Shown piece after piece: positions 43,230-44,191 of a DNA stretch of 48,026 nucleotides; the first letter of the stretch is position 1; every line of letters starts with the position of its first letter. Origin of the DNA: Nitrospirae bacterium GWF2_44_13 (GTDB taxonomy: Bacteria > Nitrospirota > Thermodesulfovibrionia > Thermodesulfovibrionales > UBA1546); assembly GCA_001805105.1 (NCBI GenBank), contig MHEE01000006.1:1-48026 (forward strand), read 5' to 3'. Under the pieces are notes generated by a model, which did no database searches, was not told the origin of the DNA, and saw only the letters and a program-made list of their open reading frames with translations. The position numbers and the translations under genes were made by a program.

Positions 43230-43571
43230 TCATTTCATCTCCAGTGGATATTCAGCCTTTCTCCATGCGCCCCAGCCGCCCTTAAGAGCTGATACCTCTT
43301 TGAAGCCTTCCTCAATCAAAATGCCTGCCACACGGGCGCTGGCATGCTCTTCTTTTCAGGTGCAGTAGGTAACAATGGCGTTGTTTTTGTCCAATCTCTT
43401 TGCGAATTCCTTTATCGCAGCATCATTATCAGGGTCAAGATATACAGAGCCCTTTATCTTTTTGTGGCTGCTTGCGTATGCCTCCTGCCTGCGGACATCA
43501 AGGATTAAAACAGGCTCACCTTTATCCATCATTGCCTTCAGTTCATCAACTGTGATTCTTGGATATTCCAT
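43230..43571 (-). CDS. Rhodanese-domain protein with in-frame TGA, candidate selenoprotein
   Basis: The frame reads MEYPRITVDELKAMMD...VLILDVRRQEAYASSHKKI and reaches VTYCT, then TGA (43358-43356). It then continues without frameshift through KEEHASARVAGILIEEGF and ALKGGWGAWRKAEYPLEMK to a real stop at 43232-43230: 113 residues in all. Related single-domain rhodaneses carry YC-x-C-P-x-E-x-x-SAR here, so the TGA occupies the place of the second Cys. A hairpin (UGCCA/UGGCA, 43344-43326) with a loop starting in G begins 11 nt after the TGA, as expected for a bacterial SECIS. The alternative is a nonsense-mutated pseudogene. AAAGGAG precedes the ATG. Confidence 0.6.
43326..43344 (-). promoter_or_regulatory. 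Candidate bacterial SECIS hairpin
   Basis: On the minus strand UGCCA pairs with UGGCA around the loop GCGCCCGUG, extended after one A-G mismatch by a GC/GC pair. It starts 11 nt after the in-frame UGA of the rhodanese gene. Loop position and leading G suit SelB recognition, but the stem is short. Confidence 0.4.
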
Positions 43572-43618
43572 TTTATATCTCCTTTCAGTTAATTATTACA
43601 AACTGAAAAACCCTACTT

Positions 43619-44191
43619 TTAAATTGCAGTCCCTCTCCCAATAGAAAACGCCTCGCCAAGATAATCGCCGACTTTGTGGTAAGCGCGCGTCTCAGGACTA
43701 AAGAGAATAGGCTTTACTTTTTCTATATCCGGAAGCCCTTTTTCATTAAGCGCAGATTCATCAGCTTTAACATCCATGATTTCTCCGACAAACTGTGTAT
43801 GCAGCCCGATTTCTAATGTCTGGATTACCTTGCACTCCACAATCAAAGGGAATTCCTTTACATAAGGGGCGTCAACCATATCGCTTTTTTCGGGCGTAAG
43901 CCCTGTGGTAGAAAACTTGTCCGTGTCTTTCCCTGAGACCATTCCAAAATAGTCAGCCTCTTTGGCATATGCCTCGGAAGGAACATTTACGGTGAATGCT
44001 TTTCTCTCAATGATATTCCCGTAAGTATAGGTTGCCTTCCTTATGGAAATCGCAACGCAGGGAGGCTTGGAACAGCAGATTCCTCCCCATGCAATAGTCA
44101 TGACATTAGGCTTCCCGGCCTTGTCATAAGTTCCAATAACCCAGACAGGTGTAGGGTAAATCAGCGTCCTCGGGCCAAATGATTTCTTCAT
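43619..44191 (-). CDS. Flavin reductase-like FMN-binding protein (flavoredoxin type)
   Basis: 190 residues of the flavin reductase split-barrel family: [52 protein letters not shown] and the later YHKVGDYLG. Binds FMN and transfers electrons from NAD(P)H or reduced partners; the physiological partner is unknown. It lies upstream of, and on the same strand as, the rhodanese gene, 47 bp apart. Confidence 0.88.

Follow-up and report, generated by a model that had tools for sequence, protein, structure and literature searches.

Whether an in-frame TGA within a rhodanese gene terminates translation or encodes selenocysteine (Sec) is the question raised by a locus on contig MHEE01000006.1 of Nitrospirae bacterium GWF2_44_13, the whole 48,026-nt stretch of which was analysed and is called the window here. 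The frame opens with an ATG at 43571 on the minus strand, closes with a terminal TGA at 43232–43230, and is broken solely by one further TGA (Table 1), after which 41 intact codons follow; no damage other than this TGA was seen. Read through, it yields a product of 113 aa (MEYPRITVDELK...IVTYCTUKEEHASARVAGILIEEGFKEVSALKGGWGAWRKAEYPLEMK), in which the Pfam Rhodanese domain covers residues 7–105 and spans the TGA (3.8e-19). The codons TGC ACC TGA give YCTU, that is, the CxU motif of the NCBIfam family NF041203, with an active-site-type Cys70 (TGC, 43364–43362) and U72 two residues on. The coordinates, motif and downstream residues given for this TGA in a preliminary description of the locus were all exact. 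Its reasoning that the TGA lies beside the active-site Cys, two residues after it, also holds, but its title was ambiguous, as the active-site Cys itself is not replaced. A gene caller treating TGA as a stop would return a 71-residue fragment or no gene. The pattern TACTGNRCCTGA matched two further sites in the host, of which the one that was read, on contig 1, is non-rhodanese in that frame.

Table 1. Features of the rhodanese locus within the window.
Feature	Position	Strand	Details
Rhodanese gene, predicted selenoprotein	43230..43571	−	113 codons + stop; Sec = codon 72; PF00581, NF041203
In-frame TGA, predicted U72	43356..43358	−	Column holds TGA in Sec relatives and a Cys codon (TGT/TGC) in DedA-fused homologues
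Shine-Dalgarno-like AGGAG	43579..43583	−	Sequence; 7 nt upstream of ATG
Flavin-reductase-like gene	43619..44191	−	Upstream, 47-nt gap, same strand; PF01613, 1.1e-35
Conserved apical SECIS hairpin	43325..43339	−	Stem +17–21/+27–31, loop +22–26 CGTGT, G23 U24 = 43333–43332
Alternative hairpin UGCCA/UGGCA (preliminary description)	43326..43344	−	Loop of 9 nt, first base G; TGA-to-loop distance 16 nt

The family was surveyed by a six-frame search of 176 genomes of the host's order with the NF041203 cut-off. All of the matches above the cut-off (35/35) carried one or two in-frame TGA codons and none was TGA-free; the Y[C/U]xU motif was present in those that were read, and the motif position was always TGA, never TAA or TAG, in many genomes. 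Since homologues in many genomes have TGA at the same column, a chance TGA is excluded. Distant homologues in the phylum share a loop of the form [YF]C[ATN]CPN[ED]..[SA]A (e.g. YCACPNE..SAR), in which a standard Cys codon occupies the Sec72 column. Their frames are longer, mostly 310–410 codons, and include a hydrophobic stretch immediately upstream, an arrangement like that of DedA-rhodanese fusions. At the level of sequence, TGA and Cys codons sharing one column is the classical Sec/Cys pairing. Across 38 aligned homologues, Tyr69, position 70 (Cys/Sec), position 72 (Sec/Cys), Ser78, Gly98, Gly99, Trp103 and Pro109 were invariant.

Close copies occur in a single genome from the host's family and in several genomes from the order's other families, in unrelated contexts, and this patchy spread suggests horizontal transfer or repeated loss. 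A related-locus search of genome contigs returned ordinary distant rhodaneses only, and a plasmid search returned only distant homologues (<40% identical), two of those listed being annotated as DedA/GlpE fusions. In the seven same-genus genomes sampled there was no match at the order-wide threshold, G001 and G007 giving distant matches only, and the nearest comparison therefore comes from another genus. This absence, as well as the weakness of the family-conserved hairpin in the window copy (see below), would be in keeping with the TGA being a real stop, leaving a decaying pseudogene or a 71-residue fragment; it has to be set against the same-motif TGA in many genomes and the intact frame beyond it, which retains the invariant Ser78, Gly98, Gly99, Trp103 and Pro109.

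The host assembly, which is the window's own (1.99 Mb, 18 contigs, 100% complete), encodes SelA (626.6 bits), SelB (385.8 bits) and SelD (362.9 bits), all above the curated cut-offs and with this SelB the sole one above its cut-off, together with a tRNA-Sec of anticodon UCA on contig 2 (66.6 bits). The bacterial Sec-decoding trait (selA, selB, selC with UCA, selD) is thus present in the host. Elsewhere, selB was detected in 9/9 other TGA-bearing genomes tested, and also in 5/6 genomes that lack the Sec gene or have the Cys form, so that the presence of selB alone is non-discriminating. The host selD (L047:1501–2427, minus strand) is itself a selenoprotein gene, with an in-frame TGA in the motif SSCAGUAAK; Sec-containing SelD is a well-known selenoprotein.

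The host additionally has a tRNA-Sec-like tRNA with the Cys anticodon GCA at G000:C18:15600–15691 (= L127:1597–1692, minus strand), which scores 60.3 bits to the Rfam tRNA-Sec model, over the cut-off, and is located directly upstream of, and on the same strand as, the selenium-metabolism gene yedF (TIGR03527, 202 bits). It resembles the published selC* tRNA-Cys, which was reported in Nitrospirae among others (PMC7609411). Such a tRNA offers a route by which the UGA might be read as cysteine, as proposed for some deltaproteobacteria; nevertheless, its anticodon is GCA and not UCA, on which ground this reading was rejected, and a single SelB above cut-off is found together with a normal UCA tRNA-Sec and SelA. 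Decoding as cysteine is therefore regarded as exceedingly improbable.

The preliminary description had pointed to a hairpin with a G-starting loop 11 nt downstream of the TGA. That hairpin (UGCCA/UGGCA, loop of 9 nt) exists and dominates the computed ensemble of the window mRNA (pair probabilities 0.72–0.92), but its register is poorly kept among relatives, and the family-conserved hairpin lies 5 nt further 3′. The latter emerged from a gap-free alignment 3′ of the Sec TGA of 52 distinct sequences, with 15 Cys homologues as contrast: G23 was present in 52/52 and U24 in 45/52 Sec sequences, compared with 9 and 0, respectively, of the 15 Cys homologues. GT at +23/24 was found in 45 sequences, while a codon null gave a mean of 5 and a maximum of 12. 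The mean number of pairs per sequence was 4.44 against 3.15 under a synonymous codon resampling null (maximum 3.65, 2000 draws), and fell to 1.1–2.8 when the partner strand was slid by 1–3 bases. Both partners of the +18/+30 pair are third codon positions, and their changes are mostly synonymous (Ser AGC/AGT with Ala GCA/GCG), the pair being CG in 19, TA in 23, CA in 6, TG in 1 and other in 3 of the 52 sequences. Standard pairs at this position numbered 43, versus 34 expected by shuffling, and 0/10,000 shuffles reached 43, which, the sequences being related, is not a strict probability. On this comparison, the better-supported register lies about 5 nt away from that of the UGCCA/UGGCA hairpin.

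Published limits for the bacterial SECIS are a G at one of the first two positions of the loop, a loop of 3–9 nt, a UGA-to-loop distance of 16–37 nt, an upper stem of at least 4 bp and an MFE of −7.5 kcal/mol or lower (PMC13188914 Fig. 2A). Both registers fit the loop limits, the family register with CGTGT, G at position 2 and 21 nt, and the earlier one with GCGCCCGTG, G at position 1 and 16 nt. The MFE is −10.5, and the stem has 5 bp in the earlier register and 3 bp in the family-conserved one, since in the window copy three of the five family-stem pairs form (GCC/GGC, loop CGUGU), fewer than the published minimum of 4 bp. The 3.54 pairs of the leaderless clade to which the window gene belongs (see below) lie within the codon null (mean 3.23, maximum 4.15); G23/U24 was present in 13/13 of its sequences compared with 0.9 under the codon null, and the window loop encodes G23-U24 through CGT, which accounts for 5% of Arg codons in the window.

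The conserved TGA column and the RNA covariation at third codon positions led us to reject the pseudogene or true-stop reading, which we regard as very improbable. Two of the checks that the preliminary description had proposed, namely a search of the host for selA, selB, selC and selD and an alignment of homologues, returned all four genes (selC with anticodon UCA) and TGA or Cys in the Sec72 column. Together with the conserved SECIS and its third-position covariation, these results support its reading of the TGA as selenocysteine, and we consider with high confidence that the gene is a true rhodanese selenoprotein, with Sec incorporation at the TGA predicted from sequence.

The preliminary description had also stated that rhodanese-related proteins are known among bacterial selenoproteins, and a CxU rhodanese family is indeed already catalogued. 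NF041203 (rhodanese_LYCAU) is an NCBIfam equivalog described as 'rhodanese-related (seleno)protein'. With the TGA read as Cys, the window protein scored 118.1 bits against the curated equivalog cut-off of 115; the same gene scored 112.8 bits in the six-frame genome search, below the cut-off of 115. In the accessible parts of two reviews, the corresponding entries are 'rhodanese-like domain-containing protein form 3, CxU', under NF041203, in 2026 (PMC13188914), and 'COG0607 form 2, CxU' in 2022 (PMC9312934). The gene is a further member of this published CxU rhodanese selenoprotein family, and is not new as a family because NF041203 and the review tables already hold CxU rhodanese. The window protein shares the domain and the YCxU motif with the family, but has TYCTU instead of LYCAU, has no signal peptide (it aligns from model position 19), and has close relatives with UxU. 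Text searches for LYCAU found no description, most subscription journals being outside their coverage.

Other rhodanese systems are more distant. In fusions with DedA-type membrane proteins (one being annotated as such), CxC rhodanese domains have the same loop, YC-x-C-P-N-E-x-x-[SA]-A, but differ from the window gene in carrying Cys for Sec, in U24 (0/15) and in the membrane segment upstream. The ChrE-type rhodanese (NF033833) was the second-best NCBIfam match, at 48 bits far under its 120-bit cut-off. The TsoB rhodanese/DsbD fusion (NF045694) is likewise a rhodanese-containing selenoprotein, but it is a large fusion, listed in a review table with UxxxxU spacing, in contrast to CxU here, and the window protein scored 30.2 bits against its cut-off of 805.

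Within the order, several other arrangements were observed. A rhodanese group (L109, L111, L114–L118 and L126), mostly with signal peptides, has TGA in motifs like YCRGxGUGLS (Cys-x4-Sec), and TsoB was the best NCBIfam match, far under cut-off, for the two of them that were scanned. L013, L014 and L125 are rhodaneses with TGA seemingly at the active-site Cys position (IUMFDKRSP). L108 has TGA in YCTUPNEASSARVA and, upstream, a membrane segment resembling that of the DedA-fused Cys forms; as this Sec form falls among the CxC clade, it suggests a separate Cys/Sec conversion.

The phylogeny, built by a quick method from 107 columns with both motif positions masked and with many open forks, placed the window gene in a clade of 14 sequences (SH-aLRT 97) that start at or near the rhodanese domain without a hydrophobic leader. 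The majority of the remaining Sec members begin with a signal peptide or a lipobox-like leader, as judged by hydrophobicity, and proteins of the leaderless clade are probably cytosolic. The nearest relative, L084, is 79–80% identical and is a UxU form (TAT TGA ACC TGA), so that the window CxU gene and its UxU sister differ at the motif by one Cys/Sec codon. The tree has 13 UxU rows, which represent several families of the order, with L141–L143 coming from outside it. CxU and UxU are interleaved; well-supported branches require at least 4 changes, and parsimony requires 9.

NF041203 scores UxU proteins above its cut-off (L084, 125.5 bits; L142, 131.7 bits), and its authors may therefore be aware of them. 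No UxU rhodanese was found in the accessible parts of the 2022 and 2026 reviews (PMC9312934, PMC13188914) or in text searches, whose coverage excludes most subscription journals. On balance, we favour the view that in the leaderless clade the catalytic Cys repeatedly converts to or from Sec, and that at least 13 TGA-NNN-TGA sequences, in which a single SECIS 3′ of the motif apparently serves both codons, represent a double-selenocysteine rhodanese absent from the review tables as far as these are accessible.

An AlphaFold2 model with Cys replacing Sec (pLDDT 91.2) aligned with solved rhodanese domains at Z 13–17 (VIA-align 2) and has the rhodanese fold. In this model, strand 65–69 leads through the Cys70-x-Sec72 loop into helix 76–87, a predicted layout that fits, as expected, the rhodanese active-site loop. 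The active-site Cys of rhodaneses is expected to carry a persulfide. We propose that SelB and Sec-tRNA-Sec would decode the UGA as selenocysteine, guided by the hairpin just downstream, to give a small single-domain rhodanese, presumably cytosolic, with the active-site motif Cys70-Thr-Sec72. Cys70, at the rhodanese active-site position, would take sulfane sulfur as a persulfide, and Sec72, two residues on, could resolve the persulfide rapidly or receive the sulfur as a second carrier, either by attacking the persulfide or by forming a Cys-Sec selenenylsulfide that would then be reduced. The cycle may result in fast sulfur transfer or polysulfide reduction. The 'Cys-x-Sec redox or sulfur-transfer centre' of the preliminary description appears reasonable, and the specific Cys70/Sec72 chemistry proposed here is moderately probable.

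The flavin-reductase-like gene is possibly co-transcribed with the rhodanese gene, but was not evident beside rhodanese relatives, and no shared neighbours were evident by eye around 12 clade members. With no conserved gene neighbourhood evident, substrate and partner are without guidance from gene context. In a variant of the selenoprotein explanation, the protein would serve selenium metabolism by carrying perselenide towards SelD, rather than act as a sulfurtransferase or polysulfide reductase. Selenium metabolism does involve rhodanese domains, E. coli YbbB being an example cited in PMC1794560, and the host also has YedF, but linkage to sel genes is not evident here or in relatives, and the wide occurrence of membrane-fused Cys homologues in the phylum suggests a role that is not selenium-specific; this variant seems unlikely.

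The window gene adds another clean case of Sec use in a sulfurtransferase-type protein. Its UxU sisters provide a test case for one bacterial SECIS serving two UGAs one codon apart, and the occurrence of CxC, CxU and UxU on one scaffold offers a natural comparison of the contribution of each selenium atom.
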